Positions 11,520 to 63,270 of a stretch of DNA of 64,000 nt are shown piece after piece. This DNA comes from Arenicola marina (taxonomy: Eukaryota; Annelida; Polychaeta; Arenicolidae): assembly GCA_964019135.1 (NCBI GenBank), contig OZ025257.1:27264352-27328351 (forward strand), written 5' to 3'. Position 1 is the stretch's first letter. Each line of letters starts with the position of its first letter. The notes beneath the pieces were generated by a model. That model searched no databases. It was given only the letters and a program-made list of their open reading frames with translations, and was not told where the DNA came from. A program made the translations under genes and the position numbers.

Positions 11520-11850
11520 ACTCTGACAGGCACGCATCCTGCGTCATTTGTCGCACAAAAAATTTCAAATGACGCATTTCACTGAGCTGTGAGGGGACAT
11601 GGGGACGCATTGTATGCTGGATGTGAGAGGGGTTTCTCTGTCCAGAATCGGGCCTTACGCCATACAGGAACAGATTGGCCATGGTGACCCCGGGTCAGCT
11701 GCTGATAGTGCAATGCATGTTAGACATTGTATGTAACTAGTTTTTTTTTATTAAATTATTTCTGCGGATGTCCCATAATTTTAAGAAGCTCTGGGGCATT
11801 TGACACACCCACTGGCATACCTATCAGAATCACTGTAGTGGTACATCGAT
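11520..11850. repeat. Diverged repeat pair, member 1
   Basis: Aligns with 14870-15100 and 15722-15770. Shared stretches include cctgc.tcattt near the left end, tgtgagaggg in the middle, cccataattttaa, and agctctggg.catttg at the right. Identity is roughly 70%, so the copies are old. Confidence 0.6.
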
Positions 11851-19620: not shown

Positions 19621-22600
19621 AATCAGGGCATAGACATAAATATCTATTAGATTTATTATATATTCGTAATATTGACTAATGGTCATTTTGAATCGTTATA
19701 AGTACTAATATGCCTCAAGTACTGTGTATATCGACACACTAATAACACAATCTGTGATACAATTCATACAGCTTCCAACTTATGGTCAGCTGTCAACCAA
19801 TGTCGGATGCCAACCAATAACACAATGAACTAGCATGCAGATTGTAGAACATCAAATTAAAATAGAAGATAATCAACAACTGAGAATAATAGGTCAATTT
19901 CACTATCTGGCATCGCTGAATCACTGAGCTGACGGTTTAAGTTTGTGTTAAATCATGAGTTATGTCATATCCCAGGAGTCCGTCGACATCCACTGGGGCT
20001 GTTTTCTTGTCCTGGTGGATCTGCGCGGAGAAGGTGATCGCTTGACGGGTACGATGTCATCACTGACGTCTGCAACCTCCGGTCTCGGCGCGATACTTTG
20101 GCTTTCCTCAGGTAGATCTGTATGTCCTGGTGACGAGTCACGCGAAACGAAATCGGAACTTATCTCACCAGGTAAATCGTCATGCTCAGGCGGTGAAGAT
20201 CTGAGCGGCGGATGATGCAAGCGTTGATGAGTCAACGGTGTATTGTATGGTGGGTTAATAATAGCACCCGGACAAGAAGGCAGGACATTCTGCGTAACAC
20301 GTGATTCATTGTCTTCATCAGTCTCATCTGCATTTTCTTCACGCTGGCAGCCTCTAATAGGTTCGAATGGGTAGATTTCGACATTTTGCTGAACCAGGTA
20401 GCAGTCGTTAATAGGTATGTCGTACGCCTTTGATCGGAATTGAGATTTGATGAATTTGCGGATTTTACATTGATCTCCTGATATTTCAACCACGATATAT
20501 CTATCTCGGGCTTTCGTCTTATCACGATCCACCTTTAGATCGACCAAATCACCCACTTGCACCTTGATCATCGTTGATTCACTGCGGCTTCCAGCTTTGG
20601 ACTTGCTGTGAAGATGGTTAGCAGTTCGTATATGCTGCTGTGTCCTGAGGAGCTGAAAATTATCTATGGGTAACTGTTGCCCAGTGACCTGGTCCCGTTG
20701 AGTCCATATTTCACGCGCAGACAGACCACCCTTACGAATCCGCGCGTTCAGGTTTGCAGTAGCAACCGCGAGCGTAGATTGCGTCAGAGTATCGCCTTCC
20801 GGGTTGAGACGCAAACATTTCATACCTAACTCTTGGATGGCGCGTTCTGCCACAGGATTTATATTTACGTTTTTTGCTGCGCCGATATTAAGAACGATAC
20901 CCAGAGCTTTAAGAGACTGGTCGTTCCGCAAGCTTACGAAGCCTGGGGCTGGGTCAACGCGAACGTGAACTTCGTGATCTCCGTATGAACGGACTTCAGC
21001 GGTAAGTGCGATTAAGGCATTTCTCAGCTCGTCTCGGGTTTCACCCCCGATCAGGGAGGTAAGGCTGTACGATGAAACAGTTTTTCGAAGAACAAATACA
21101 TATTGTCGATAACGGCGCATGACGTCAGCTGCGAAGTTCGATCCTATCAAAGCCGGAGGATCGCACGATGTCTGAGGTCGCAGATAATTAGGTAGGGTTT
21201 TAAGTGACGCACAGTGATGACAAGATTGTGTTACATCTACAAGAGCTTTATCCAGATCCAAGGCATAGAAATACCTGGTGAATAACGCCTTCATCTGGCG
21301 CTGTGATGGATGCTCGAACCGTATGTGTGTTGCCGTCAACAGACCGTTAATGACAGCGCGTGGTACGACGATCCTGTCTCTGGTAGGTAAGAAAGGTTTG
21401 TCTTCTCTCACCACTAACAACCCATCATTCGCAATGGTTACGTCGCGTATGTATCGTTTGACGTCCTGTATTGTAGTTTGCTTTTTGGAGGGTCGAGTTC
21501 CCTGTACGAGGTGTGCGTGTGTACGCCGAAGATTCGGACACTCGAGTTGAGTTACCTTCCAAGCTGCTCGGTTGGTGAATGGCATCTTTACTGAACCGTT
21601 TCTGACGTCACTGATTGATACACCGCGGACGACGGAATCTTCGGATTCCATGATAAATTTACGCAACTGACAACTTTGATCCGAACATTCAGCTGGGTGT
21701 CTGCTTGCATAATCTGACGGAAGATTGGCGGCTCCAGATATGTGTCGGATTTAGTTTTTCACAGGCTTGAACACACGGTCTACTGTCCGTTAATAGTTGT
21801 GTAGTGTGTTGTGATTGAATAATGAACGGAGCGAAGTGCTTGATCGCCGTGCCAATAGACAGCGCGTCGATTTCGCAAGGCATCCACGTAACTTGGTGCT
21901 TCCTGAGTTTAGCGTTGAAGAAGCCAGCTAGGATGAGAACGTCGTTGCGGCGAACGTATAATGTTGCGGCGATGCCTTGACTTCTGACTGATCCGTCTGT
22001 CACTATCCATAATTGGTCTCTGGGCTGTGGGATAGTAACTGTCTTAGTATTTTGTAACCAGTCCTGCGCTTCTTTGAACTGAGGTGGTGAGAAGCACTTC
22101 ATTCCAGATGATAACCTCACGGGACTCTTTGCCCGCTGTTGCGGCTTCGAGTGGACGTATTGAGCGTATCCGCGAAGAACACGACTGAGCACCTTATAGG
22201 CTCCAATAAACGATCTCAATCCTTGAACAGTTCTGGGTGGTTTAACTAGTGTAAGCGCGCTGATTCTGTGGTTGCTGGCTTTTAGTGTGCCGTCTGACCA
22301 AATCCATCCTAAAGTATTCGCTGATTTCGGGCATATGATCGTTTTAGAGGCAGAGAGACGAAGATTGTTTCGCTTCAGTGCTGATAACACCCGGGACCAG
22401 TTGGTCAAAGTTTCCTGTGGGCTGTCACCGCCTACGTACAAATCGTCAGCGATTTTTGCCACACAACCTTCTTGGATCAAGTCACCAAGAACTCTACACA
22501 TCAGTTATTCTAAGCATGTCTCGGATCCTGGCATCCCCATGGCTGAGCGGGTGTATACCCTGACGCCTTTGAAGGGTGTTGCAACTCCGCAGTATTTCAT

Positions 22601-24865
22601 TGACGTTTGGGCCAATGGTATCTGATAGAACGATTTGAGTAGATCGGATATTACGATGTATTTCCATTTCGCTATTTCACGAAGAACTCCGTCAACGTTC
22701 GGCATCAGTGAAGGTTGGGGTTTGCAGTAATAAGCCACTTCGCCAAATGAGGTGACCAAACGTTTACTGCCGTTGGGTTTGTTGACGAGAAAAGATAGAT
22801 TAAGATATTCCACGGTGGTGTTGACGTCTTCGGGCTTAGCGAATACCCCGGCGGCTTCGAGTTCGTCGAACTTTTGCTGTAATTCAGTCATATTTGACTT
22901 GTTATACAGTGGGAGACGTCCCTTTCTCTGGGGTGGAAGAGTAGGTCCTATGTTCACCACAGCCTTAATCTTCCCGCTTGCTCCATTATACTTCGACAGT
23001 TTAGGGTCAAAGACGGTGTCGTATTGTCGGTGAAGATCTTTGAATCCTTGTCGAATTTCTGTAGGTAAACGTTCGTCTGGGTCTACCGGTGCTTCTATCT
23101 TCACAGTCCGGGTTGTTGGTAACACTGGCTGTTGCTGAGGAATTGTCTCTGGTGGAGACCCGACTTCTCTGACTTGGCATAGTGTTCGTTGCCTTTGATC
23201 AGGATTGCTTCTGACATGGTATTGGCAACGCGAAGTGTGTGTCCGACAGCGACGATCTCTTGTGGGGTAGGCCAAGCTTTGCCGAGTTTCAGGTTTCTAT
23301 TAGATGGGCTGTCCCACCTGGGTTCCAAAGCCCACGTCGCGTCTTTGATGGTGTTCTGTGGAGTGGCGAGTTCTATGTAATCGCCTGGAAGCACGACGGT
23401 GATCTGCGGTGGACCCCGCAGTAAGTGGGCTTGTGTACGCCTGACGGATATCCCAGTGTCCACTGGGTTACCATAATATATTATACCAGATCCCTGTATA
23501 ACAATCTGGCGTTTAGCTGGTCGTGTTGCGATGTCATTAGTAACGAGGAAGGGATTGCCGGCTAAAACGTCTACATCGAGCTGTTTAACCACGAGAGCGT
23601 TCAGACTGAACGTGTGTCTGTCACGTGTTAGTTCACAATGAACCTCGCCGATGACGTCAAGTGGGGTTATGCCATCAGCTTGACGTGCTGACTGGGATGG
23701 GGTTTCGATTGGTAATCCAATTCTTTTAGCGAATGACGCTAGAATTATGTTAGTTGTAGCACCGGTGTCTAGTGTGACTTTAACACGGTGGTGCTGGAAG
23801 AATGTAGTCAGAAATGGAGATTGAATGACGTCAACGTTCCTCACAGTTGGTTCTGTATCCAGTCAAGCGTCTGGAACTGCTTCAGTGTCTCTGTCATATG
23901 AAAGTTCGTAAATATGTTCATCGTACTCATCATCTGCCACGCGACGTGATCGCCCTAAGGCATGTCTGTCAGCTTCTGGTAAATACTGACAATCGATGAG
24001 GTTGTGGGACGCATAATATGGTCTGCGTGCAGTTTTACACAATATACATGACTTAAACCCCTTTGGTCTTCGCTGTGGCTGGTTTTTCTGGTGGTACATG
24101 GGAGCTGATGACGTGCGTAGGGTTTTCGAATCATCGATGGTTCGTAACTCATCCAGAAGAGACGACAGAGCTTGGGATATTTCCGGTTTTAGAGATGCTA
24201 AGGATTGTTTTCGAAGTTCAGCGCCATATTTCTGTTTGACAAACTGAGGTAACGCAGGATTTATTAGATTGAGCCACATGAACACAACCGTGTTCTCCAA
24301 AGTAGGTGTTAGGTCTTCATCAACCATGACCGGTTCTCCGTGATGGAGAATGTCGCTATCCGGAGTGAGAAGATTATCCTCGAAAAAGGCTAACAAGCGC
24401 TGGTATAGATCCTCAGGTCGTTCATCAGGTAATAACTTGATATTAGATAGGTCTAAGAAATGAGCTCCGGAGGACTGGAAGCCATAATGCAGACGAATCT
24501 TCTGCCAAATATCTGGCAATGAGGTAGAACTTTTCACGATGGAAAATCTTGATATGACTGAGCAATAGTTCGCTATTTGGCCCAGTAATAGCTCAAGTCC
24601 AGCGTTCTTTTGTGTGGCAGTGAGTCTTTGTTCACTGGGTACGGATGCTACATCATCAGTTAGTCCTCTATTTGGGTTTGTAGCAGTTTTCTTCGGCAAC
24701 ACAACTCCTTCAATGAGAAAACTGTTGAAGCTATGGTCCAATGACAGTATATATATTAAGTTTTGCCTCCAGTTTTCAAATGAGTTTACTGTCTTATGCT
24801 TTGTCTTATAGACCATTGTTTTGGAGCTCTTGCCATGTTTGTCTGGCGAACAAAGCTGGTAGCTT

Positions 24866-24934
24866 ACTTGGCGCAAGTGCCCCCAGGCAAGCCCGCTTCC
24901 AAAGCGGGCTTGCCTGGGGGCACTTGCGCCAAGT
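24866..24934. repeat. Perfect 33-bp palindrome with 3-base loop
   Basis: The arm 24866-24898 (acttggcgcaagtgccccca...) is the exact reverse complement of 24902-24934, with cca between. It lies near the 5' end of the internal region of the LTR element. It may be a tiny foldback insertion or an RNA structure of the element. Confidence 0.85.
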
Positions 24935-25041
24935 AGCTTACGTGCGTGAGGGAACTTCAATTTTCCAAATCGAAGGTGAGTGAAGCTGTTTCAGTCTGTT
25001 CGTCTTGTTGATACACTATGTTACACCGAACGAGGGTTTGT

Positions 25042-31533: not shown

Positions 31534-31956
31534 GCATCTGACACCCCTTTACTAAACAAACCAGCGAGATACAACCAAAGATTGTCTAGACGATCTTTGA
31601 TACAACAGGAAACAAAAAAGGCGCGAAACATGATTCAGCACTATAAATACCGGAAACAGATTTGTCGGTCGAACTGCGCGTTGCAAACCAGACACGGCGG
31701 CTGTGTGTGGCCTGCCTGGCCCAATGCCTCCAAACCTGTGACACCAGTAACGTACATGTTATTCAAGAACGCAAGTATGACATGAATATTAATTTCGGTT
31801 TTGCAGACTTCTTCAAGAAGTGTAATATGAGGCAGGGACATTTTGGGGATATCACCCCTCATTCCTCGCCCCGGCGTCTCCTCAGCTAACCTAAGTGGCA
31901 ATGAAACACTATAAGCCGTAGGGGGAGGGTACGTGTGGAGACAAAAGTACATAAAC

Positions 31957-32534
31957 CAGGGCCGGATTCAGACTTTAGAGGGTGGGGAGGCTTGAATTTC
32001 GCGACTACAAGGCATACTACAGGGGCGAATCCAGACTTTAGGGGGTGGGGGGGGGTGCAGGGGCGGATCTAGGAATTTGCCAAGGGGGCGGTTGCTCTCT
32101 GAACAAACTTGCGACCGGGGGGGGGGGAGGGGGGTGCTTGGACAAGCCGATTTTAACAGTGTATGTTCAGGTACCCAAGGGGTGGGTTGCAACCCCCCTA
32201 ACCGACCCCCCCCCCATAGACCCGCCCCTGGGTGGCTTGAATTTCGAGATTACAGTGCATAGGCGGCGGAGGTGGGTGGGGCACTGGTCCTTCTCCAGCA
32301 TTAGGTTGCTGCTCGTGGACAGCGATAGGCTGCTTTATTCTCGGGGGCTAAACCTGTCGGTGGGTGGGGGGGGGCTTCTGTGGCTTGACCAGGGGGTGGG
32401 GAGGGGGGCTGTAGCCGCAGTAGCCCCCCCCCGCTGGATCCGCCACTGTTAAACACATAGAATTAGAAAGAGGATATGCATAATTACGGCTAACATGTAC
32501 GTGCCCCTTAAACCGAAATCGTCTATCCGCCCCT
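31957..32534. mobile_element. Nested hAT-like MITEs (unit 1)
   Basis: Three left ends of the cagggg-cgg-at-cag type occur in succession: 31957 (cagggccggattcag), 32020 (caggggcgaatccag) and 32058 (caggggcggatctagg). Matching right ends are at 32230 (cccgcccctg), 32448 (ctggatccgccactg) and 32534 (atccgcccctg). This pattern indicates insertion of related elements into each other. The cagggg...cccctg termini are typical of hAT MITEs. Clean 8-base target duplications cannot be read because the flanks are G-rich. Confidence 0.65.
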
Positions 32535-32625
32535 GGAAATTGCGCCCTTAGATCTAACCAGAACCAAACCGCTCAAATCATAACGTACCAAAAGGACCCG
32601 TTGTTCCAATTAAAAATCTCCTGCG

Positions 32626-34605
32626 GACGACGGCGATGGTGGGGACAGTCTGGAAGGCGGGTATGGTGGGGACAGTCTGGAGGGCGGGGATGGTGGGGAC
32701 GGCGGAGATGGTGGGGACAGTCTGGAAGGCGTGGATGGTGGGGACAGTCTGGAGGGCGGGGATGGTGGGGACGGCGGAGATGGTGGGGACAGTCTGGAGG
32801 GCGAGGATGGTGGGAACGGCGGAGATGGTGGGGACAGTCTGGAGGGCGGGGATGGTGGGGACAGTCTGGAGGGCGAGGATGGTGGGAACGGCGGAGATGG
32901 TGGGGGCAGTCTGGAGGGCGGGGATGGTGGGGACAGTTTGGAGGGCGAGGATGGTGGGGACGACGGAGATGGTGGGGACAGTCTGGAAGGCGGGGATGGT
33001 GGGGACAGTCTGGAGGGCGGGGATGGTGGGGACGGCGGAGATGGTGGGGACAGTCTGGAGGGCGAGGATGGTTGGAACGGCGGAGATGGTGGGGGCAGTC
33101 TGGAGGGCGGGGATGGTGGGGACAGTCTGGAAGGCGGGGATGGTGGGGACAGTCTGGAGGGCGGGGATGGTGGGGACGGCGGAGATGGTGGGGACAGTCT
33201 GGAGGGCGAGGATGGTTGGAACGGCGGAGATGGTGGGGGCAGTCTGGAGGGCGGGGATGGTGGGGACAGTCTGGAGGGCGGGGATGGTGGGGACGACGGA
33301 GATGGTGGGGACAGTCTGGAAGGCGGGGATGGTGGGGACAGTCTGGAGGGCGGGGATGGTGGGGACGGCGGAGATGGTGGGGACAGTCTGGAGGGCGAGG
33401 ATGGTTGGAACGGCGGAGATGGTGGGGACAGTCTGGAGGGCGGGGATGGTGGGGACAGTCTGGAGGGCGAGGATGGTGGGAACGGCGGAGATGGTGGGGG
33501 CACTCTGGAGGGCGGGGATGGTGGGGACAGTCTGGAGGGCGAGGATGGTGGGAACGGCGGAGATGGTGGGGGCAGTCTGGAGGGCGGGGATGGTGGGGAC
33601 AGTCTGGAGGGCGGGGATGGTGGGGACGGCGGAGATGGTGGGGACACTCTGGAGGGCGAGGATGGTGGGAACGGCGGAGATGGTGGGGACAGTCTGGAGG
33701 GCGGGGATGGTGGGGACAGTCTGGAGGGCGAGGATGGTGGGAACGGCGGAGATGGTGGGGGCAGTCTGGAGGGCGGGGATGGTGGGGACAGTCTGGAGGG
33801 CGGGGATGGTGGGGACGGCGGAGATGGTGGGGACAGTCTGGAGGGCGAGGATGGTGGCGACGGCGGAGATGGTGGGGACAGTCTGGAGGGCGGGGATGGT
33901 GGGGACGGCGGAGATGGTGGGGACAGTCTGGAGGGCGGGGATGGTGGGGACGGCGGAGTTGGTGGGGACAGTCTGGAGGGTAGGAATGGTGGGGACGGCG
34001 GAGCTGGTGGGGACGGCGGAGCTGGTGGGGACAGTCTGGAGGGCGGGGATGGTGGGGACGGCGGAGATGGTGGGGGCAGTCTGGAGGGCGGGGATGGTGG
34101 GGACGGCGGAGATGGTGGGGACGGCGGAGATGGTGGAGACAGTCTGGAAGGCGGAGATGGTGGGGACGGCAGAGATGGTGGGGACAGTCTGGAGGGCGGG
34201 GATGGTGGGGACAGTCTGGAGGGCAGGGATGGTGGGGACGACGGAGATGGTGGGGACAGTCTGGAGGGCGGGGATGGTGGGGACGGCGGAGATGGTGAGG
34301 ACGGCGAAGATGGTGGGGAGAGCCTGGAGGGCGGGGATGGTGGGGACTTTCTGGAGGGCGTGGATGGTGTGGACCGCGGAGATGGTGGGGAGAGCCTCGA
34401 GGGCGGGGATGGTGGGGACAGTCTGGACGGCGGAGATGGTGGGGAGAGCCTGGAGGGCGGGGATGGTGGAGACTGTCTGGAGGGCGGGGATGGTGGGGAC
34501 GGCGGAGATGGTGGGGACTGGGAGGACGGTGGGTGGGGATGATGGGACGGTGCGGACGATGACGATGGTGTGGACGGCGGAGTTGGTGGGGTCGGTGGGG
34601 ACGGT
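32626..34605. repeat. G-rich minisatellite, unit 1 (about 1.9 kb)
   Basis: Built from 27-base units (gatggtggggacagtctgga-gggcggg) and 18-base units (gatggtggggacggcgga), often paired as 45-base composites. All lengths are multiples of 9 and the units contain no stop in several frames, so very long open frames run through it on both strands. These encode Gly-Asp, Val-Trp-Arg-Ala or Pro-Pro-Ser repeats and are artefacts. The plus strand has dense GGGG runs that could form G-quadruplexes. Confidence 0.95.
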
Positions 34606-35309
34606 GCCACCCCCACCACTCCCTCGCCTGTACCAGGGAGGACTGACGATGATACCCAGTTTAGTCGGCTACGGGGCAATGTCCCCTCAGTCCGCACCGT
34701 CCCTGCCGTCTACACCATCCACGCCGTCTCCGCCGACGGGAGGAAAAGTGAAAATGCGGCCAATCACACAGCTAGAAATTTTTGTGGCGCCATAATCTAT
34801 TTCTGATCAGTGGTAAAGAAACCACCAAATATCTTAAATATTGATCTCCGGTGAAGCACATAAGCGAGCCTTTCCTTTGATAGCGTGTCAGGTTATTTGG
34901 CCTCTCCTGTCTCATGTGCTGTTGGTCGCATGTTTCCATGTACTTGAATGACTTACGGCAGGCAATAGGTATCAACAAGAGCCGAACCCGGCACGCCGGG
35001 ACCGCTCTGGGACGTCATGTACCTTTGCGGTAGCTCCAAAAGTTAACGCTCGTATCCTGTCCCAAACTCCACCACGCTTTTCTCAAGGCAGCCCCCATCC
35101 CCTCCCCTGCTCGCCCAACTTCACGCCGTGGAGCGGCTCTACAGCCGGTCCCCGTATATGTGAAGCCCCCACCTCCCCGACCCTCCCATCCCCCAACCTC
35201 AGCCACCCCCTTACACCACAACCTTCAACCCATCCCCTCCCCCCCCCCTTTTCAAATTTTTTTTTCAAATTCATAGATCCGTCTCTGTATTTTTCGAGTT
35301 CGTTTATAT

Positions 35310-35530
35310 TATCTGCAGCGTCACCGCACCGTCACCTCCGTCAGCACCTTCACCTAGGTCAGCACCGTCACCTCCGTCAGCACCGTCCCCATCATCCCAC
35401 CGTCCCACTATCCCCACCGTCCCCTCTGTCCTCTCCGCCCCCATCGTCCCCATCGTCCCGACCACCCTCGCCAACCCCCCCGTCCACACCGTCCCCACCA
35501 TCCCTACCGTCCTCACCGTTACCACCGGGC
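35310..35530. repeat. C-rich cryptic repeat (accgtcacctccgtc type)
   Basis: Degenerate units such as caccgtccccatcatccc, roughly the reverse complement of the minisatellite theme, about 0.8 kb from it in opposite orientation. Its duplicate is at 43870-44080. Confidence 0.7.
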
Positions 35531-36407
35531 CACCTGAGAGCCTAACGGCACGTGGATCGATAATTCCAGCCCTGCTGTGGCCATGTCTGTGTGGTCGCAG
35601 GATAAAGATCCCATGTCTTTCTTCGTAAAGAGTAGGGGTTACCCCCCGGGGACATCGCTCCACTCTCCCTTCCTTATCCCATTGACGCGATATGACCAAA
35701 CGTGGTTAAAGCGTCCAGAGTAACCAACCCACCAACCAACCGTTCCCACCGTCCCCGCCGTCTCCGCCGACTGGAGGAAGCGCGAAAATGCGGCTAATCA
35801 CACAGCTAACACATTTCACGGCACCATAATATATAGCAGTGGTAAAGAAATCAGCCAACACCATGAATATTGGTCTCCGGCGCAGCTAATAAGCGGGCCT
35901 TTCCTCGGATAGCGTGTCCATTTATTTGGCTTCTCCTGTTTCATGTGATGTTGGCCTCTGTGCATGTTACCATGTACTTGAACCAGTCAGTGAAATCGGA
36001 AACAGTCAGATGCAGGTCGGGCCCCAGTCTGACTAGTAGAACACAGCCCGAGCGCCCTCTGCCGAGAGTGTGGCAAGGAATATTTAGCGCGGCCCGGATC
36101 GTTGAACTCATAAATCTATTGTAATTTAAAGCGTAATTGAAGTGTTAGCGTTTCAATAATTTATCAGTTACCTTTTTATGGTAGATAAATTAATTATTAA
36201 AGACATTTATTTAGAAATTAATAGAAATTAATTATTAAACACATTTCGACCAGTGTTTAGGGGATAATTTTGTGGTGCCGCGGGAATTTGCTCCTTACTC
36301 AGAAACGTCTCATGGGGGCTGTTAAGCGAAATGAAAGTCCTAAGCCTATGCTTGAAATGGACTTTGATTATGCATGCGTGTTACCTTAAGAGCTCGCTTG
36401 CGCTCGC

Positions 36408-36486
36408 TATAAAACATATATGCATCATAATTTTGAGATACTTTTAGTCTTGATTCTAAAATGTAAAAAATCTAAGATGGCGCATG
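36408..36486 (+). repeat. Dispersed 78-bp repeat, copy 2
   Basis: Nearly identical to 6215-6291. It is followed at 36521-36545 by a (taaga)n tract with aaaactttattaaagcg, which resembles an inverted LINE tail. Confidence 0.8.
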
Positions 36487-36604
36487 TAAGTTTATTGCTT
36501 TAAACACGGGTCCAACAGATAAGATAAGATAAGATAAAACTTTATTAAAGCGACACGAAAAAAACAAAAGTGTTGATCAAGTTCTGAATCAGTGCAACCA
36601 TCCG

Positions 36605-36776
36605 CAGAAGTGGATCTAGGAATTTGCAAAGAGAGGGGGGGGGGGCGGTGCTCTCGTGTGACCGGGGGGGCGGTGCTCGAAGAACCCGAATTTCACATTG
36701 TATGTTCAAATTCCCGAAGGGGAGGAGTTGAAACTAGCCTAACCCCCCTATCCCCCACCCCCCAGATCCGCCTCTG
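36605..36776. mobile_element. hAT-like MITE (unit 1, second)
   Basis: The left end cagaagtggatctaggaatt and right end agatccgcctctg mirror the caggggcggatctagg ends at 32058. It is about 172 bases. The gtgcaac.atcc on both sides may be a remnant of the target site. Confidence 0.6.
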
Positions 36777-37049
36777 TGTCATCCAGTGCAACAAGATGGC
36801 GCTTCTATGACGTCGTATCGTGGCATTCACAAGTCAAATGTTACTTTATGTGACGTACTTCCTTCGATATTCAATCAAACCACAACCACGCATATGAGAG
36901 GCATTATTCATGCATATCAAATAAAGCATTATCCTGTTATCTTGTCTGGGTACCCCCTGTAAAAGTCCTGCATCTGTACATGTTGTATATGCCTCAGCAT
37001 GCAAGTGTCAGACACGCAACCGCTTTAATTTCTTCTCCTTCGCGTCGCT

Positions 37050-37734
37050 TTACAAAGCCAATAACACGCCAACAATAAGGCACTGAAAAAAGACAGCCGC
37101 AGCCCGCGGTGAATACGATCCTTGCGCGCCATTGGTCGGCTCGTCATCCCACGTGACCAAAATGCGGACCGGGGCCCCGCTGCCGCCTTCTATATTCATG
37201 GGCATGACGTAGGCAGTGGCGCCACTGGGCGGCAGCGAGCAGGGATCCTTCACGTTCTCCAGGCCGTACACGTTACGCGAGGCGAGCTCCACGTGAGTTG
37301 GAAAGCGCGTGCTGGCGCCGTTGTCAGTGCTGGGGGTGTCGACAGCCACGCCCACCACCCCTCTCTCATCCGCTAGCCACGTGGCCGCCTCCACGCTGAA
37401 CCCCGGGAAGTGGAAGGCGGCCGTATCCTCGCGGTCGTTGCCGAAGTAACCGGCCTTGTCGACGCCGTACATTGCCGACCACCCGGAGCACTGGAAGACG
37501 ACCGCGCCGGTCGGGATACGGCCGTGGGCCGACTCCCAATCCGTGACGTCATCCACCGTCACGTTCGCATCCGGGTCCTGCGCCGCGCGTGCCCGGATGT
37601 CGACCATGATGACGGGTGCGATGAGTCTGTCGAGGGAGATGTCATCCACGGACCACGCGTCCTTGGCGAAGTGGCTCGGCGCGTCCAGGTGGGTTCCGCC
37701 ATGTTCCGGGGCGTGGAGTAGATTAGTCTCGAGC
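37050..37734 (-). CDS. Cyclase-family last exon, duplicated copy without its own first exon
   Basis: An intact 685-base exon, the same length as 46288-45604 and differing from it at only a few residues near the C-terminus (MNIEGG versus MKIEGG, VTWDDE versus VTWNDE). It keeps the PF04199 metal/catalytic motif HGGTHLDAPSH, the stop codon and a good acceptor (gtacacag|gctcgag). No first exon lies in this unit, because the duplication breakpoint falls about 180 bases inside the intron. It may be spliced from the distant exon at 47682-47489 as an alternative last exon, or be unexpressed. The absence of frame damage fits either recent origin or use. Confidence 0.65.
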
Positions 37735-38341
37735 CTGTGTACCACACCAATACAAACATTAAATAAGATCATTTCTCATTTTAATTCTCAGGTTTACGTC
37801 AGAATAAGTATTCTTGTAGGTAAAGTAATTCATAGCATTAATATAATTTACCTATAAAACATAGAGCTCAAAGTTTGAAATCTAATTTCTGAACAAACTC
37901 GGGCATCAACTGAATGAGCATCTGACACCCCTTTACTAAACAAGCCAGCGAGATACAACCAAAGATTGTCTAGACGATCTTTGATACAACAGGAAACAAA
38001 AAAGGCGCGAAACATGATTCAGCACTATAACTACCGGAAACAGATTTGTCGGTCGAACTGCTCGTTGCAAACCAGACACGGCGGCTGTGTGTGGCCTGCC
38101 TGGCCCAATGCCTCCAAACCTGTGACACCAGTAACGTACATGTTATTCAAGAACGCAAGTATGACATGAATATTAATTTCGGTTTTGCAGACTTCTTACA
38201 AGAAGTGTAATATGAGGCAGGGACATTTTGGGGATATCGGCCCTCATTCCTCGCCCCGGCGTCTCCTCAGCTAACCTAAGTGGCAATGAAACACTATAAG
38301 CCGTAGGGGGAGGGTACGTGTGGTGACAAAAGTACATAAAC

Positions 38342-38840
38342 CAGGGCCGGATTCAGACTTTAGAGGGTGGGGAGGCTTGAATTTCGCGACTACAAGGCAT
38401 ACTACAGGGGCGAATCCAGACTTTAGGGGGTGGGGGGGTGCAGGGGCGGATCTAGGAATTTGCCAAGGGGGCGGTTGCTCTCTGAACAAACTTGCGACCG
38501 GGGGGGGGGGGGGTGCTTGGACAAGCCGATTTTAACAGTGTATGTTCAGGTACCCAAGGGGTGGGTTGCAACCCCCCTAACCCCCCCCTTAGATCCGCCC
38601 CTGGGTGGCTTGAATTTCGAGATTACAGTGCATAGGCGGCGGAGGTGGGTGGGGCACTGGTCCTTCTCCAGCATTAGGTTGCTGCTCGTGGACAGCGGTA
38701 GGTTGCTTTATTCTCGGGGGCTAAACCTGTCGGTGGGTGGGGGGGGGGGCTTCTGTGGCTTGACCAGGGGGTGGGGAGGGGGGCTGTAGCCGCAGTAGCC
38801 CCCCCCCGCCCCCCCCCCCCTCCCGCTGGATCCGCCACTG
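38342..38840. mobile_element. Nested hAT-like MITEs (unit 2)
   Basis: Duplicate of the cluster at 31957: left ends at 38342, 38405 and 38441, right ends at 38603 (cttagatccgcccctg) and 38840 (ctggatccgccactg). The inner pair is better preserved here than in unit 1. Confidence 0.65.
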
Positions 38841-39015
38841 TTAAACACATAGAATTAGAAAGAGGATATGCATAATTACGGCTAACATGTACGTGCCCCT
38901 TAAACCGAAATCGTCTATCCGCCCCTGGAAATTGCGCCCTTAGATCTAACCAGAACCAAACCGCTCAAATCATAACGTACCAAAAGGACCCGTTGTTCCA
39001 ATTAAAAATCTCCTG

Positions 39016-42000
39016 CGGACGACGGCGATGGTGGGGACAGTCTGGAAGGCGGGGATCGTGGGGACAGTCTGGAGGGCGGGGATGGTGGGGACGGCGGCGA
39101 TGGTGGGGACAGTCTGGAAGGCGGGGATGGTGGGGACAGTCTGGAGGGCGGGGATGGTGGGGACAGTCTGGAGGGCGGGGATGGTGGGGACGGCGGCGAT
39201 GGTGGGGACAGTCTGGAAGGCGGGGATGGTGGGGACAGTCTGGAGGGCGGGGATGGTGCGGACGACGGCGATGGTGGGGACAGTCTGGAAGGCGGGGATG
39301 GTGGGGACAGTCTGGAGGGCGGGGATGGTGGGGACGGCGGAGATGGTGGGGACAGTCTGGAGGGCGAGGATGGTGGGGACGGCGGAGATGGTGGGGACAG
39401 TCTGGAGGGCGGGGATGGTGGGGACGGCGGGGATGGTGGGGACAGTCTGGAGGGTGGGGACGGCGGCGATGGTGGGGACAGTCTGGAAGGCGGGGATGGT
39501 GGGGACAGTCTGGAGGGCGGGGATGGTGGGGACGGCGGCGATGGTGGGGACAGTCTGGAAGGCGGGGATGGTGGGGACAGTCTGGAGGGCGGGGATGGTG
39601 GGGACAGTCTGGAGGGCGGGGATGGTGGGGACGGCGGCGATGGTGGGGACAGTCTGGAAGGCGGGGATGGTGGGGACAGTCTGGAGGGCGGGGATGGTGC
39701 GGACGACGGCGATGGTGGGGACAGTCTGGAAGGCGGGGATGGTGGGGACAGTCTGGAGGGCGGGGATGGTGGGGACGGCGGAGATGGTGGGGACAGTCTG
39801 GAGGGCGAGGATGGTGGGGACGGCGGAGATGGTGGGGACAGTCTGGAGGGCGGGGATGGTGGGGACGGCGGGGATGGTGGGGACAGTCTGGAGGGTGGGG
39901 ACGGCGGCGATGGTGGGGACAGTCTGGAAGGCGGGGATGGTGGGGACAGTCTGGAGGGCGGGGATGGTGGGGACGGCGGAGATGGTGGGGACAGTCTGGA
40001 AGGCGGGGATGGTGGGGACAGTCTGGAGGGCGGGGATGGTGGGGACAGTCTGGAAGGCGGGGATGGTGGGGACAGTCTGGAGGGCGGAGATGGTGGGGAC
40101 GGCGGGGATGGTGGGGACAGTCTGGAAGGCGGGGATGGTGGGGGCAGTCTGGAGGGCGGGGATGGTGGGGACGGCGGCGATGGTGGGGACTGTCTGGAAG
40201 GCGGGGATGGTGGGGACAGTCTGGAGGGCGGGGATGGTGGGGACAGTCTGGAGGGCGAGGATGGTGGGGACGGCGGAGATGGTGGGGACAGTCTGGAGGG
40301 CGGGGATGGTGGGGACGGCGGAGATGGTGGGGACAGTCTGGAGGGAGGGGATGGTGGGGACGGCGGAGTTGGCGGGGACAGTCTGGAGGGTAGGGATGGT
40401 GGGGACGCAGGGCTGGTGGGGACAGTCTGGAGGGCGGGGATGGTGGGGACGGCGGAGATGGTGGGGGCAGTCTGGAGGGCGGGGATGGTGGGGACGGCGG
40501 AGATGGTGGGGACAGTCTGGAGGGCGGGGATGGTGGGGACGGCGGAGATGGTGGGGACAGTCTGGAGGGCGGGGATGGTGGGGACAGTCTGGAGGGCGGG
40601 GATGGTGGGGACGACGGAGATGGTGGGGACAGTCTGGAGGGCGGGGATGGTGGGGACGGCGGAGATGGTGGGGACGGCGAAGATGGTGGGGAGAGCCTGG
40701 AGGGCGGGGATGGTGGGGACTTTCTGGAGGGCGTGGATGGTGGGGACCGCGGAGATGGTGGGGAGAGCCTGGAGGGCGGGGATGGTGGGGACAGTCTGGA
40801 CGGCGGAGATGGTGGGGAGAGCCTGGAGGGCGGGGATGGTGGGGACTGTCTGGAGGGCGGGGATGGTGGGGACGGCGGCGATGGTGGGGACAGTCTGGAA
40901 GGCGGGGATGGTGGGGACAGTCTGGAGGGCGGGGATGGTGGGGCAGTCTGGAGGGCGGGGATGGTGGGGACGGCGGCGATGGTGGGGACAGTCTGGAAGG
41001 CGGGGATGGTGGGGACAGTCTGGAGGGCGGGGATGGTGCGGACGACGGCGATGGTGGGGACAGTCTGGAAGGCGGGGATGGTGGGGACAGTCTGGAGGGC
41101 GGGGATGGTGGGGACGGCGGAGATGGTGGGGACGGCGGAGATGGTGGGGACAGTCTGGAGGGCGGGGATGGTGGGGACGGCGGGGATGGTGGGGACAGTC
41201 TGGAGGGTGGGGACGGCGGCGATGGTGGGGACAGTTTGGAAGGCGGGGATGGTGGGGACAGTCTGGAGGGCGGGGATGGTGGGGACGGCGGAGATGGTGG
41301 GGACAGTCTGGAAGGCGGGGATGGTGGGGACAGTCTGGAGGGCGGGGATGGTGGGGACAGTCTGGAAGGCGGGGATGGTGGGGACAGTCTGGAGGGCGGA
41401 GATGGTGGGGACGGCGGGGATGGTGGGGACAGTCTGGAAGGCGGGGATGGTAAGGGCAGTCTGGAGGGCGGGGATGGTGGGGACGGCGGCGATGGTGGGG
41501 ACTGTCTGGAAGGCGGGGATGGTGGGGACAGTCTGGAGGGCGGGGATGGTGGGGACAGTCTGGAGGGCGAGGATGGTGGGGACGGCGGAGATGGTGGGGA
41601 CAGTCTGGAGGGCGGGGATGGTGGGGACGGCGGAGATGGTGGGGACAGTCTGGAGGGAGGGGATGGTGGGGACGGCGGAGTTGGCGGGGACAGTCTGGAG
41701 GGTAGGGATGGTGGGGACGGCGGAGCTGGTGGGGACAGTCTGGAGGGCGGGGATGGTGGGGACGGTGGAGATGGTGGGGGCAGTCTGGAGGGCGGGGATG
41801 GTGGGGACGGCGGAGATGGTGGGGACAGTCTGGAGGGCGGGGATGGTGGGGACGGCGGAGATGGTGGGGACAGTCTGGAGGGCGGGGATGGTGGGGACAG
41901 TCTGGAGGGCGGGGATGGTGGGGACGACGGAGATGGTGGGGACAGTCTGGAGGGCGGGGATGGTGGGGACGGCGGAGATGGTGGGGACGGCGAAGATGGT

Positions 42001-43262
42001 GGGGAGAGCCTGGAGGGCGGGGATGGTGGGGACTTTCTGGAGGGCGTGGATGGTGGGGACCGCGGAGATGGTAGGGAGAGCCTGGAGGGCGGGGATGGTG
42101 GGGACAGTCTGGACGGCGGAGATGGTGGGGACGGCGGAGATGGTGGGCAGAGCCTGGAGGGCGGGGATGGTGGGGACTGTCTGGAGGGCGGAGATGGTGG
42201 GGACGGCGGAGATGGTGGGCAGAGCCTGGAGGGCGGGGATGGTGGGGACTCTCTGGAGGGCGGGGATGGTGGGGACGGCGGAGATGGTGGGGGCAGTCTG
42301 GAGGGCGGGGATGGTGGGGACGGCGGAGATGGTGGGGACAGTCTGGAGGGCGGGGATGGTGGGGACGGCGGAGATGGTGGGGACAGTCTGGAGGGCGGGG
42401 ATGGTGGGGACAGTCTGGAGGGCGGGGATGGTGGGGACGACGGAGATGGTGGGGACAGTCTGGAGGGCGGGGATGGTGGGGACGGCGGAGATGGTGGGGA
42501 CGGCGAAGATGGTGGGGAGAGCCTGGAGGGCGGGGATGGTGGGGACTTTCTGGAGGGCGTGGATGGTGGGGACCGCGGAGATGGTAGGGAGAGCCTGGAG
42601 GGCGGGGATGGTGGGGACAGTCTGGACGGCGGAGATGGTGGGGACGGCGGAGATGGTGGGCAGAGCCTGGAGGGCGGGGATGGTGGGGACTGTCTGGAGG
42701 GCGGAGATGGTGGGGACGGCGGAGATGGTGGGCAGAGCCTGGAGGGCGGGGATGGTGGGGACTGTCTGGAGGGCGGGGATGGTGGGGACGGCGGAGATGG
42801 TGGGGGCAGTCTGGAGGGCGGGGATGGTGGGGACGGCGGAGATGGTGGGGACAGTCTGGAGGGCGGGGATGGTGGGGACGGCGGAGATGGTGGGGACAGT
42901 CTGGAGGGCGGGGATGGTGGGGACAGTCTGGAGGGCGGGGATGGTGGGGACGACGGAGATGGTGGGGACAGTCTGGAGGGCGGGGATGGTGGGGACGGCG
43001 GAGATGGTGGGGACGGCGAAGATGGTGGGGAGAGCCTGGAGGGCGGGGATGGTGGGGACTTTCTGGAGGGCGTGGATGGTGGGGACCGCGGAGATGGTAG
43101 GGAGAGCCTGGAGGGCGGGGATGGTGGGGACAGTCTGGACGGCGGAGATGGTGGGGACGGCGGAGATGGTGGGCAGAGCCTGGAGGGCGGGGATGGTGGG
43201 GACTGTCTGGAGGGCGGGGATGGTGGGGACGGCGGAGATGGTGGGGACCGGGAGGACGGTGG
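39016..43262. repeat. G-rich minisatellite, unit 2 (about 4.2 kb) with higher-order repeats
   Basis: Same 27/18-base units as in unit 1, but expanded in blocks. A marker gatggtgcggacgacggcg recurs near 39251, 39691 and 41032 (first spacing about 440 bases). Toward the right end a block of about 504 bases, marked by gagatggtgggggcagtctg near 42280 and 42790, is present about three times. Open frames of up to 1446 codons through it are artefacts of the 9-base periodicity. Confidence 0.95.
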
Positions 43263-43869
43263 GTGGGCCGTCTACACCATCCACGCCGTCTCCGCCGACG
43301 GGAGGAACAGTAAAAATGCGGCCAATCAGACAGCTAGAAATTTTCGTGGCGCCATAATCTATTTCTGATCAGTGGTAAAGAAACCACCAAATATCTTAAA
43401 TATTGATCTCCGGTGAAGCACATAAGCGAGCCTTTCCTTTGATAGCGTGTCAGGTTATTTGGCCTCTCCTGTCTCATGTGCTGTTGGTCGCATGTTACCA
43501 TGTACTTGAATGACTTACGGCAGGCAATAGGTATCAACAAAAGCCGAACCCGGCTTGCCGGGACCGAACCCGGCACGCCGGGACCGCTCTGGGACGTCAT
43601 GTACCTTTGCGGTAGCTCCAAAAGTTAACGCTCGTATCCTGTCCCATACTCCACCTACTCTCAAGGCAGCCCCCATCCCCTCCCCTGCTCGCCCAACTTC
43701 ACGCCGTGGAGCGGCTTTACAGCCGATCCCCGTATATGTGAAACCCCCACCTCCCCGACCCTCCCAGCACCCCTCACCCCCTCACTCCCATCCCCCAACC
43801 TCAGCCACCCCCTTACACCACAACCTTCAACCCTTCAATTTTTCGAGTTTGTTTATATTATCTGCAGCG

Positions 43870-44080
43870 TCACCGCACCGTCACCTCCGTCAGCACCTTC
43901 ACCTAGGTCAGCACCGTCACCTCCGTCAGCACCGTCCCCATCATCCCACCGTCCCATTATCCCCACCGTCCCCTCTGTCCTCTCCGCCCCCATCGTCCCC
44001 ATCGTCCCGACCACCCTCGCCAACCCCCCCCCCCACCGTCCACACCGTCCCCACCATCCCTACCGTCCTCACCGTTACCA
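43870..44080. repeat. C-rich cryptic repeat (unit 2 copy)
   Basis: Duplicate of 35310-35530, with a longer C run near 44026-44036. Confidence 0.7.
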
Positions 44081-44962
44081 CCGGGCCACCTGAGAGCCTA
44101 ACGGCACGTGGATCGATAATTCCAGCCCTGCTGTGGCCATGTCTGTGTGGTCGCAGGATAAAGATCCCATGTCTTTCTTCGTAAAGAGTAGGAGTTACCC
44201 CCCGGGGACATCGCTCCACTCTCCCTTCCTTCTCCCATTGACGCGATATGACCAAACGTGGTTAAAGCGTCCAGAGTAACCAACCCACCAACCAACCGTT
44301 CCCACCGTCCCCGCCGTCTCCGCCGACTGGAGGAAGCGCGAGAATGCGGCTAATCACACAGCTAACACATTTCACGGCACCATGATATATAGCAGTGGTA
44401 AAGAAATCAGCCAACACCATGAATATTGGTCTCCGGCGCAGCTAATAAGCGGGCCTTTCCTCGGATAGCGTGTCCATTTATTTGGCTTCTCCTGTCTCAT
44501 GTGATGTTGGTCTCTGTGCATGTTACCATGTACTTGAACCAGTCAGTGAAATCGGAAACAGTCAGATGCAGGTCGGGCACCAGTCTGACTAGTAAAACAC
44601 AGCCCGAGCGCCCTCTGCCGAGAGTGTGGCAAGGAATATTTAGCGCGGCCCGGATCGTTGAACTCATAAATGTATTGTAATTTAAAGCGTAATTGAAGTG
44701 TTAGCGTTTCAATAATTTATCAGTTACCTTTTTATGGTAGATAAATTAATTATTAAAGACATTTATTTAGAAATTAATAAAAATTTATTATTAAACACAT
44801 TTCGACCAGTGTTTAGGGGATAATTTTGTGGTGCCGCGGGAATTTGCTCCTTACTCAGAAACGTCTCATGGGGGCTGTTAAGCGAAATCAAAGTCCTAAG
44901 CCTATGCTTGAGATGGACTTTGATTATGCATGCGTGTTATCTTAAGAGCTCGCTTGCGCTCG

Positions 44963-45042
44963 CTATAAAACATATATGCATCATAATTTTGAGATACTTT
45001 TAGTCTTGATTCTAAAATGTAAAAAATCTAAGATGGCGCATG
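44963..45042 (+). repeat. Dispersed 78-bp repeat, copy 3
   Basis: Segmental-duplication copy of 36408-36486. Confidence 0.8.
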
Positions 45043-45160
45043 TAAGTTTATTGCTTTAAACACGGGTCCAACAGATAAGATAAGATAAGATAAAACTTTA
45101 TTAAAGCGACACGAAAAAAACAAAAGTGTTGATCAAGTTCTGAATCAGTGCAACCATCCG

Positions 45161-45330
45161 CAGAAGTGGATCTAGGAATTTGCAAAGAGGGGGGGGGGGC
45201 GGTGCTCTCGTGTGACCGGGGGGGCGGTGCTCGAAGAACCCGAATTTCACATTGTATGTTCAAATTCCCGAAGGGGAGGAGTTGCAACTAGCCTAACCCC
45301 CCTATCCCCCACCCCCCAGATCCGCCTCTG
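45161..45330. mobile_element. hAT-like MITE (unit 2, second)
   Basis: Duplicate of 36605-36776, differing mainly in homopolymer length. Confidence 0.6.
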
Positions 45331-45603
45331 TGTCATCCAGTGCAACAAGATGGCGCTTCTATGACGTCGTATCGTGGCATTCACAAGTCAAATGTTACTT
45401 TATGTGACGTACTTCCTTCGATATTCAATCAAACCACAACCACGCATATGAGAGGCATTATTCAAGCATATCAAATAAAGCATTATCCTGTTATCTTGTC
45501 TGGGTACCCCCTGTAAAAGTCCTGCATCTGTACATGTTGTATATGCCTCAGCATGCAAGTGTCAGACACGCAACCGCTTTAATTTCTTCTCCTTCGCGTC
45601 GCT

Positions 45604-47682
45604 TTACAAAGCCAATAACACGCCAACAATAAGGCACTGAAAAAAGACAGCCGCAGCCCGCGGTGAATACGATCCTTGCGCGCCATTGGTCGGCTCGTCA
45701 TTCCACGTGACCACAATGCGGACCGGGGCCCCGCTGCCGCCTTCTATCTTCATGGGCATGACGTAGGCAGTGGCGCCACTGGGCGGCAGCGAGCAGGGAT
45801 CCTTCACGTTCTCCAGGCCGTACACGTTACGCGAGGCGAGCTCCACGTGAGTTGGAAAACGCGTGCTGGCGCCGTTGTCAGTGCTGGGGGTGTCGACAGC
45901 CACGCCCACCACCCCTCTCTCATCCGCCAGCCACGTGGCCGCCTCCACGCTGAACCCCGGGAAGTGGAAGGCGGCCGTATCCTCGCGGTCGTTGCCGAAG
46001 TAACCGGCCTTGTCGACGCCGTACATTGCCGACCACCCGGAGCACTGGAAGACGACCGCGCCAGTCGGGATGCGGCCGTGGGCCGACTCCCAATCCGTGA
46101 CGTCATCCACCGTCACGTTCGCGTCCGGATCCTGCGCCGCGCGTGCCCGGATGTCGACCATGATGACGGGTGCGATGAGTCTGTCGAGGGAGATGTCATC
46201 CACGGACCACGCGTCCTTAGCGAAGTGGCTCGGCGCGTCCAGGTGGGTTCCGCCATGTTCCGGGGCGTGGAGTAGATTAGTCTCGAGCCTGCGTACCACA
46301 CCAATACAAACATTAAATAAGATAATTTCTCATTTTAATTCTCAGGTTTACATCAGAATAAGGTTTCTTGTAGATAAAGTAATTCATAGCATTAATATAA
46401 TTTACCTATAAAAAATAGAGCTCAAAGTTTGAAATCTAATTTCTGAACAAACTCGGGCATCAACTGAATGATCAAAGCTGTAATTTTCGTTGAACTAAAT
46501 ATTCAGATGAATTGGTATTTGCGAGGAAGAAATAACAAATTTTAGTGTTCAATGTGCTGAATGCATAATATCTTGAACAGTTTTTACCATGCGAAGAAAT
46601 GTTATGACTGCCAGTCTCTTCAAACGGGAACCTAGAGACTCACGAAACGTCGAATGATCGCCTCTGACTATTTTCTGATATGTGATATATCTGATATGTG
46701 GATTTATTTCTAATATTTCTCCTGAATAATATTCACGGGTATTCTATTTTTACTTTAAACCTTCAACAACACGTTTATTTCTCAACCGAAACAAAGCTCA
46801 ACAAGTTTACTTTTAACATTTTCAAGTAGATGACGTCATTGCTATCGTTTCGGCGAACGCGATCGTGTATCAATCAAGTTGCACCAATGTTAACCAGAAA
46901 ACTCAACAAACTTGTAAACGTTTGTGTTATCCTCAACACGTTTACGTTTACAACAAACATAAACGCAAAATGGGTCAACTTCATTTACACAATTTCCAAG
47001 CGTGTACTAGTCCAAATAAACACGTGCTTGAACAACCCATAATAAGTACAATTTAAATATGTTCAGAACAGTTTTAGGACCCATGGTGCTAAGGTATAGA
47101 ATCTTTTAAGCAACAAGATAAAAGATGCTACATCTAAAGATGAGTTTAAATATTTTATTTCGCCATGAAAGGGCGATGATTTGAATGTTCGCAACGTGCA
47201 ATGTGTTCCTTAGAATATATTTAATATGAAATAATAGCTCTATATTGTCATGTGGTTTGTTCTTTTGACTTATTAACAATGCAATAAGTTCCTTAGCATG
47301 TAGGCGAAAAAATCAGTTTCATCAGGAGATCATTGTCAGTTAATAGTGCGCAAGTGCTAATGTTGCTTCCCTAATCATGTTACCCTGTCAATCCTTAATT
47401 TGGATAAAACGTTATCCTATCTTATCTTATCTTGGCTTTTTCTGCCCCCCCCCCCCCCCCGCCCCACTTCTGTCAATTATGTACTTACCAATTTCCGTTC
47501 TCGCTGAATCCCTTGGCAACCCGCTCCAGCATGAAGCCGTATTGGTACCCCGGCCAGGCCCACGTGTTATTGTTGTACGCATGCGTCAAGTCGAGAGTCC
47601 TACCCCGAACTCCAGGGCTAATGAACAGGAAGGTCAGGCTACAGGAAATAAGTAAAAAACAAAATGGCTTTCCCGATGCCAT
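45604..47682 (-). CDS. Secreted/GPI-like cyclase-family hydrolase (PF04199), two exons
   Basis: Exons 47682-47489 and 46288-45604 join in frame (…GFSENGN-W-LETNLLH…) to give 292 residues. The fold is that of kynurenine formamidase/isatin hydrolase, metal-dependent enzymes that hydrolyse amide or lactam bonds. Seen: a signal peptide (about 1-27, hydrophobic core FLLISCSLTFLFI), the LDLTHAYNNNTWAWPG segment, and HGGTHLDAPSH (about 76-86), which carries the family's metal-binding His and Asp. Further on are GVAVDTPSTDNG and a C-terminal hydrophobic tail AAAVFFQCLIVGVLLAL that resembles a GPI-anchor signal. The donor is attg|gtaagt and the acceptor gtacgcag|gctcgag. The substrate cannot be told. 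The last exon lies inside segmental-duplication unit 2, and a twin is at 37734-37050. Confidence 0.85.
46472..47488. other. Intron of the cyclase gene (unique part)
   Basis: AT-rich sequence between the duplication breakpoint and the first exon. It contains ttatcttatcttatctt near 47417 and a poly-C run at 47446-47460. No gene is seen. Confidence 0.5.
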
Positions 47683-61047: not shown

Positions 61048-61470
61048 AGATAAGCCGTCTAACAGTTCAAGCATCAGAACATGCAAAAATCGAATCATAT
61101 TAAACATGCTTACACTGGTTCCCTGGCAGGGAAAGTTTCGGTAGTATCAAACTTTGGACATCGCTGCTGTTTAGTGCCTTTTAACATATGATTACACATC
61201 TTACGTGTAGTTTGCTAACTCTCAGGATATCTGTGCCAGCAATTACAGTCTGGTTTACAGTCGTGATTGGCAGCACAAGGGAAAGTTAATGAACCAGGCA
61301 ACTAGGCTAGAAGCCATGATGATGGTTTAGAAGACCTCTTCTTGATCACTGAAAGTGCTTAATGCACTGAGACTAATTTACCAATGACTTATTTTCCTTC
61401 AGACTCGGCGCGAACGTTTATTATAGCCATTAGGCGATGTTAACCTGAAGTGACGCCGCGAGGGATTCAC

Positions 61471-63270
61471 ATGGTCAGAACCACCCACGCGTTAACCATG
61501 GCGACGTCGTCTGCGGCTCACCCGACGACCGTGTCGCCAAGGAAACGTCTCCTCTTCACGCGGCCCACCGTCACCACCTCGATGTCCCTGAACGCGCCAA
61601 ACTTCAGCAAGAAGATCCTGCACGGCCTGAACTCGCTGCGCAAGGAAGACACGCTCTGCGACTACGTACTGATTGCGTGCGAGGAGCGAGTGCGCGTGCA
61701 CCGAGCGGTCATGGCGGCCTGTAGCGACTACTTCCACGTGATGTTCACGGGAGAGATGCGCGAGAGCAAGCAGGACGAGGTGACGCTGCAGGGCGTCAGC
61801 GGCGTCGGCCTCAAGGTCATCGTCGATTTCGCCTACACGGGTTGCCTCGACCTGGACCTGGATAACCTGGAGGACGTGTTGGCGGCGGCCTCGCACCTGC
61901 AGGTGTCCGAGGCGCTGGTCCTGTGCGTGGACTTCATGGAGAAGGCGATCACCATCGAGAACTGCGTGGATATCCTCAACATGTCCGACCTGTATTCGCT
62001 GGCCGAGTGCAGGCGCATCACCGAGGCGTTCATCCTGGAGCATTTCGAGGCCCTGGCGGACACCGAGCAGTTCGGCAAGTTGACGGCCGCCCAGCTGGGG
62101 TCGCTGATGGCGCAGAACGAGCTGCGTGTCGTGTCGGAGTTCAAGCTCTTCGAGTTGGTGCTGCGCTGGATCGAGAAGGACCGCGCGGCACGCGAGGGAC
62201 ACGTGCGCGAGCTCATGCAATGCGTGCGCCTGCCGCTGCTGTCGGGCGAAGAGCTGGTGGACCAGGTGAGCCTGGTGGGCCTGATGCAGGAGAACAGGGC
62301 CTGCCGCGAGCTGCTGACGGCCGCCAAGGACTACCACATCGTGGTGAGCAAGCAGCCGCTGCTGCAGTCGAGTCGTACCCAGGTGCGGTCGAACAAGGCG
62401 AGTATCGTGCTGTGCCACGCCGAGAACATTGAGGCCTACGACCTGGCGTCCGGCAAGCACTCGTTCCTGAAGGACGCGCCCGTGCCGCTGTACACCCCCT
62501 GCGTCTGCGTCATCGACAACTTCATGTACGCCTGCGGCGGCAAGTACGACAGCCATGACAACAACGAGATAGCCACGGCGCGCTGCTTCCGGTATGACCC
62601 GCGCTTCGACGTGTGGCACGAGCTGGCCTCCATGAACGAGGCGCGCAAGGACTTCTCGCTGGTCGTCGTCGGCAAGTGTCTGTACGCCATCGCCGGCCAG
62701 GACGAGAACATGGTCGTCTGCACGGTCGAGTGCTTCTCCATCGCCAAAAACGACTGGGAGGGGAGGCGTTCCCTGAGCCAAGCGGCGTACGGCCACGCCG
62801 GGGCCGCCCTCCACGACCGCATCTTCATCTCGGGGGGCCAGAAGTTCGACGGCCAGTGCACGACGGTGATGTCGTACAGCGCATCGCGCGACACCTGGCA
62901 GGAGGAGACGCCGCTGCTGCACGCGCGCGTCAACCACAACATGGCCGAGTTCGGCGGCGCCCTCTACGTCATCGGCGGCAACGTCGAGGACACGTACGGC
63001 TTTCCGGTGCCCGTCGTCAGCGTGGAGATGTACTGCCCAGACACCAAGGCCTGGACCATCCTCGAGTCGAACATCAAGATCCGCGAGGCCGGCTCGTGCA
63101 CGAGCAAGGACAAGGTGTTCATCGTGGGCGGCATCAACGGCCAGCACTACTACTCGGACCTCATCCACGTCTTCGACCCGAAGAAGGACAAGCTCGACGT
63201 GTACGACCGCTTCCCGTCGCGCATCTTCGGTCGCTCCTGCTGCGTCCTCACGCTACCTCAATACATGTGA
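61471..63270 (+). CDS. BTB-BACK-kelch protein (KLHL family)
   Basis: A single 599-codon exon. KLHL proteins are substrate adaptors of Cullin-3 ubiquitin ligases. From the first ATG: a 45-residue leader; a BTB domain (about 45-155, LRKEDTLCDYVLIA...VHRAVMAACSDYFHVMFTGE); a BACK domain (about 160-262); then about six kelch blades (about 320-590) with typical GG turns (FMYACGGK, LYAIAGQD, IFISGGQK, LYVIGGN, VFIVGGINGQ). It ends FGRSCCVLTLPQYM. The ATG at 61498 (accATGG) has a better start context than 61471 and may be the true start. A tttccttcag acceptor-like site at 61400 suggests an untranslated exon upstream. Closest in feel to KLHL26/KLHL9/13, but the paralogue is not certain. Very GC-rich third positions. 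Confidence 0.92.
   Translation: MVRTTHALTMATSSAAHPTTVSPRKRLLFTRPTVTTSMSLNAPNFSKKILHGLNSLRKEDTLCDYVLIACEERVRVHRAVMAACSDYFHVMFTGEMRESKQDEVTLQGVSGVGLKVIVDFAYTGCLDLDLDNLEDVLAAASHLQVSEALVLCVDFMEKAITIENCVDILNMSDLYSLAECRRITEAFILEHFEALADTEQFGKLTAAQLGSLMAQNELRVVSEFKLFELVLRWIEKDRAAREGHVRELMQCVRLPLLSGEELVDQVSLVGLMQENRACRELLTAAKDYHIVVSKQPLLQSSRTQVRSNKASIVLCHAENIEAYDLASGKHSFLKDAPVPLYTPCVCVIDNFMYACGGKYDSHDNNEIATARCFRYDPRFDVWHELASMNEARKDFSLVVVGKCLYAIAGQDENMVVCTVECFSIAKNDWEGRRSLSQAAYGHAGAALHDRIFISGGQKFDGQCTTVMSYSASRDTWQEETPLLHARVNHNMAEFGGALYVIGGNVEDTYGFPVPVVSVEMYCPDTKAWTILESNIKIREAGSCTSKDKVFIVGGINGQHYYSDLIHVFDPKKDKLDVYDRFPSRIFGRSCCVLTLPQYM

Follow-up and report, generated by a model that had tools for sequence, protein, structure and literature searches.

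A recent partial tandem duplication in Arenicola marina has probably supplied a two-exon gene of the cyclase family with a spare last exon (2B) that is young, promoterless, and little used. The window, i.e., the whole stretch of DNA analyzed, comprises 64,000 nucleotides of chromosome C10 (C10:27264352-27328351), and positions given without the chromosome refer to this stretch. In the genome assembly searched, the mitochondrial COI (contig C762) is open under translation tables 4, 5, 9, and 13 but not under table 2, which fits a probable invertebrate; table 5 was selected by eye. Exon 1 (47489-47682, minus strand, 194 nt) encodes a start that is signal-peptide-like as judged by eye, together with roughly 38 N-terminal residues of the mature cyclase, and is directly followed by a GTAAGT donor. 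The catalytic terminal exon with its stop codon (685 nt) lies on the same strand and is present as copy A (45604-46288) and copy B (37050-37734), which have the AG acceptors GTACGCAG and GTACACAG, respectively. In silico joining of exon 1 to each copy yields an open frame of 292 residues that ends with TAA. Identity between the two catalytic exons is 98.5%; they have 10 nucleotide differences and three residue differences (K245N, V257L, and N261D, from A to B), and copy B has no frameshift or premature stop across the 685 nt up to its stop codon. These findings agree with the earlier note, which had claimed that the 685-nt exon occurs twice with frame, stop, and acceptor intact, and that the two isoforms would differ at a few C-terminal residues. 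A first exon belonging to copy B was not found: no exon-1-like sequence was detected beside it, and the sole exon 1 in the window is that of copy A, located 9.75 kb upstream of B.

The product of this gene is predicted to be a secreted enzyme of the cyclase family. The protein encoded by exons 1 and 2A matches Pfam PF04199 with an E-value of 7.2e-40 (136.9 bits, compared with a curated cut-off of 23.1), and copy B alone also matches above the curated cut-off. The best solved relatives of the exon 1+2A protein are 8f9x (E-value 9.8e-47) and the isatin hydrolase 5nmp (E-value 4.8e-38). As in this family, which includes isatin hydrolase and bacterial kynurenine formamidase, the A. marina protein keeps an HGGTHLDAPSH stretch, which aligns with the solved relatives. 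It differs in its start, which resembles a signal peptide, and in its hydrophobic tail at the C-terminus, both recognized by eye. The hydrophobic C-terminus may perhaps be read by eye as a GPI signal. The two derived residues of copy B occur at the aligned places in relatives (N245 in 8f9x and L257 in 5nmp), so either protein form, if produced, would be expected to function as an enzyme. Among the papers listed by our literature searches on this enzyme in animals, none looked useful.

The origin of the two copies by tandem duplication, also proposed in the earlier note, was confirmed by self-BLAST. Positions 35289-37917 match 43838-46471 with 98.3% identity over 2636 columns in direct orientation, and positions 31534-34518 match 37918-40891 with 91.4% identity over a stretch that includes the minisatellite array. 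Based on these two match blocks, the units abut at 37917/37918. The unit with copy A (37918-46471, 8554 bp) was delimited by self-BLAST and edges, and that with copy B (31534-37917, 6384 bp) by self-BLAST, edges, and arrays; the smaller length of the latter is mainly due to its shorter minisatellite. Such kilobase-scale identity is far beyond chance, and exon 1 lies outside the duplicated block. The junction is blunt, with the left edge ending in ...CAGATGC and the right edge beginning with TCATTCAG, which have zero bases in common. No microhomology was found at the junction between the outer edges 31534 and 46471, and repeat-mediated exchange was rejected as the origin for this reason. Substitutions between the units amount to 0.93% (10/1076 aligned bases) left of the array, 2.66% (14/527) beside the array, 1.02% (18/1759) beside exon 2, 1.46% (10/685) in exon 2, and 3.83% (7/183) in the intron part.

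These levels of divergence also bear on an improbable alternative, namely that the assembly placed two haplotypes next to each other, or that the tandem duplication is segregating in the population. Divergence of 0.9 to 3.8% is within the heterozygosity range of marine invertebrates. Outside the arrays, the bulk of the unit falls between 0.9 and 1.5%, two short parts reach 2.7 and 3.8%, and the presence of one short and one long array resembles the situation that alleles often have. Moreover, heterotype false duplications are common in older assemblies, but the lack of a gap speaks against such artifacts (PMC9516828), and no N is present anywhere in the 64,000-base window and hence none between the units. 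The junction is also located outside both arrays, and searches located the exon 2 region at four sites of C10, while none of the other contigs searched carried a single-copy version. The case has the look of a partial gene duplication of an ordinary, recent kind.

The spare last exon is probably explained by a recent, blunt-ended tandem duplication of the 3' half of a two-exon gene. The copied segment comprises 183 bp of the intron, the whole catalytic terminal exon with its putative poly(A) signal, and the minisatellite-bearing 3' flank; the promoter and the signal-peptide exon were left uncopied. The main product most likely consists of exon 1 and exon 2A, which offers the first acceptor and the first poly(A) site met by the polymerase. 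To reach exon 2B, transcription would have to continue past the poly(A) signal of copy A and across the array, and exon 2A would have to be skipped, given that exon 2A, with its own putative poly(A) signal, precedes B. If used, 2B would yield an almost identical enzyme. Little or no use of B is most likely on these grounds.

The 3' ends of the two copies are similar. A putative ATTAAA poly(A) signal starts 21 nt after the stop in both copies (45578-45583 for A and 37024-37029 for B, both on the minus strand), and the post-stop sequences have two differences (at +139 and +319) within the first 320 nt, of which one is within the first 318 nt. The earlier note had expected the isoforms to differ in their 3' untranslated regions, and this expectation was not supported. 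An untranslated region of up to 318 nt would differ at a maximum of one base. AATAAA motifs are also present past +500 in both copies, so the transcripts may have longer 3' ends, in which A and B would differ at a few additional sites.

The distance from the stop of A to the acceptor of B is 7.9 kb and includes the 4.2-kb array of unit A (39017-43248), which has periods of 27, 45, and 72 bp; the array of unit B (32625-34533) is shorter. The earlier description of the intervening array as G-rich is correct for the plus strand, with a GC skew of 0.64 to 0.68 across 39001-43000, but not for the transcript, as the plus strand is the template for the cyclase gene and the array would be C-rich in the cyclase transcript. 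The repeat unit of the unit A array has 133 matches in the genome, and all 100 matches listed fall within the 64-kb window. The minisatellite is open in several frames and its periods are multiples of nine; however, the repeat motif changes frame within single open stretches, and the array was rejected as a coding exon. One frame reads as a GGDGGDSLE repeat, which we take to resemble the RTX nonapeptide. Given the frame switches within open stretches, this resemblance was dismissed as coincidence.

Alternative terminal exons that originated through tandem duplication are already known. One example is Drosophila pip, for which tandem duplicated, mutually exclusive terminal exons are given among the examples of untranslated regions (PMC9013439). 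This precedent speaks for the possibility that splicing joins exon 1 to either 2A or 2B by setting as a regulated choice, with both isoforms made, a reading that we consider unlikely. The feature in common with pip is one upstream part that faces homologous, tandem-duplicated last exons. In A. marina, tandem homologous terminal exons were found under a common 5' exon, and the sequence of each copy includes its own acceptor, in-frame coding region, stop, and putative ATTAAA signal. Compared with pip, copy B is a candidate alternative exon, and the A. marina exons are 98.5% identical, have nearly equal 3' sequences, and are separated by the 7.9 kb between stop and acceptor with its 4.2-kb array. 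Several points weigh against regulation. The isoforms would be only three residues apart, with two of these residues known in relatives, and the 3' sequences are nearly equal, such that there would be little to regulate. The acceptor and poly(A) signal of A come first, and selection on B was not detectable from its three to five changes. Furthermore, substitutions of tandem duplicated exons form a known general class, and most of those in humans are ancient (PMC9741552), whereas the A/B duplication is young.

The outgroup copies Q and R (see below) polarize eight of the ten exon differences, and two synonymous sites are ambiguous. Copy A has four synonymous and one replacement derived changes, and copy B has one synonymous and two replacement derived changes. 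If mutations were random, replacements or stops would account for 71 to 76% of changes (transition weights 4 to 1). Without selection, one replacement among the five changes of A has a probability of 0.014 to 0.026 under four transition weights, and with both ambiguous sites given to A (1/7) this probability is 0.0012 to 0.0030. For B, the corresponding probabilities are 0.57 to 0.64 for two of three, and 0.10 to 0.15 for two of five when the ambiguous sites are included. These patterns suggest that copy A may be under purifying selection. However, the replacement share of A and B did not differ significantly (Fisher P = 0.46). The number of synonymous differences per site (7 on ~157 sites, the site number being approximate) is higher than that of flank changes (28/2835; Fisher P = 0.002), and replacement differences (3 on ~525 sites, also approximate) are not significantly rarer than flank changes (28/2835; P = 0.46). 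Because of this combination, the evidence for selection on A depends in part on a synonymous excess that has no explanation so far. With Q as the sole outgroup over ~1.1 kb (36799-37917 and 45353-46471), 13 of the 18 polarized changes are derived in A and five in B. The synonymous excess and the larger share of derived changes in A could be explained by copies that began as different alleles, or by gene conversion.

With three to five changes only, copy B appears indistinguishable from a neutral passenger, and equally it cannot be called decayed. Three to five random changes would leave B free of stops with a probability of 0.87 to 0.93, and its open frame therefore says little. Nevertheless, the open frame, the AG acceptor, the occurrence of its two derived residues in solved relatives, and the five derived changes in B compared with 13 in A (with Q as the outgroup) stand against simple decay. 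Pseudogenic or decaying duplicated exons are defined by frameshifts or stops (PMC2718932). The likeness of copy B to the exons in that description is its position as a duplicated exon adjoining the parent gene without evidence of use, and the difference is that copy B has neither a frameshift nor a stop. Should B be unused, its intact frame and splice sites would be what chance predicts at 1 to 2% divergence; should it be used, the birth of an alternative terminal exon would have been caught. The locus is a clear case of a young partial duplication through which a gene receives an alternative last exon in finished form, at a stage when selection on that exon is not yet visible.

It is very unlikely that copy B represents an independent gene with its own promoter or 5' exon. 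An in-frame ATG is present just 5' of the acceptor in B only (EMILFNVC in B and EIILFNVC in A), and the open frame continues through the acceptor. However, an unspliced product starting there would lack the signal peptide and the N-terminal part that exon 1 encodes. In addition to the lack of exon-1-like sequence found beside B, the one candidate with an ATG and a donor that was inspected by eye is in the wrong phase.

For exon 1, a search of the 867-Mb genome with E-values of up to 10, in which all nine candidates were scored (9/9), found six matches. Four of these are strong, namely A in the window, P (C10:27679592, plus strand), Q (C10:27782658, plus strand), and R (C10:14709450, plus strand). 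The two weak matches are on other contigs (E-values of 0.25 and 1.4) and were left out of the copy count. The claim in the earlier note of a single signal-peptide exon outside the duplication thus applies to the window and not to the genome, which has four strong copies. Copies of exon 2 were sought with exon 2 or PF04199; all four candidates were scored (4/4), and these correspond to A and B in the window, Q (C10:27787124, plus strand), and R (C10:14712216, plus strand). The four first exons and four second exons are all located on one chromosome and do not pair one-to-one. Q and R resemble normal genes with two exons.

The remaining first exon, P (C10:27679592-27679785), is an orphan located ~0.37 Mb away that has a promoter, an intact frame, and a donor. 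The promoter and exon 1 of P are 94.3% identical to those of A over 644 columns, and within exon 1 the two differ at 10 of the 194 nt. P retains most of the intron, which matches that of Q in blocks, to ~450 bp before exon 2 of Q, and the genome searches with exon 2 or PF04199 found no exon 2 past the intron of P. Unpaired parts have thus arisen in both directions in this family, B being a second exon and P a first exon for which no partner of its own was found. Because P is the reverse type of broken copy, unpaired exons in this family need not imply regulated splicing. We also considered whether B is the lost exon 2 of P that was moved by inversion. This origin was rejected, as exon 2 has 98.5% identity between A and B compared with the 10/194 differences between A and P in exon 1, and the edges of homology differ (Q 8173 for P and Q 8438 for B).

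A broader alternative is that this is a mix-and-match cluster in which exon 1 and exon 2 modules were duplicated and lost separately on one chromosome. Exon 1 of A might then serve two catalytic exons, and exon 1 of P might be a distant alternative promoter driving exon 2 of Q, which lies on the same strand ~107 kb further downstream. We regard such a cluster as very unlikely and prefer a young and little-used spare exon.

Other features were observed around these loci. The sequence after the intron matches of P contains frames that we take to be reverse-transcriptase-like. A satellite with ~185 bp spacing is present 5' of Q (L011 1-2615) and, in inverted orientation, downstream of P (L028 2882-5330). 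Within the window, frames named by eye include several long LTR retroelement-like frames (19963-24990, minus strand), a long GC-rich frame that is zinc-finger protein-like (8966-11578, minus strand), and a long GC-rich frame that is BTB-Kelch protein-like (61444-63267, plus strand).
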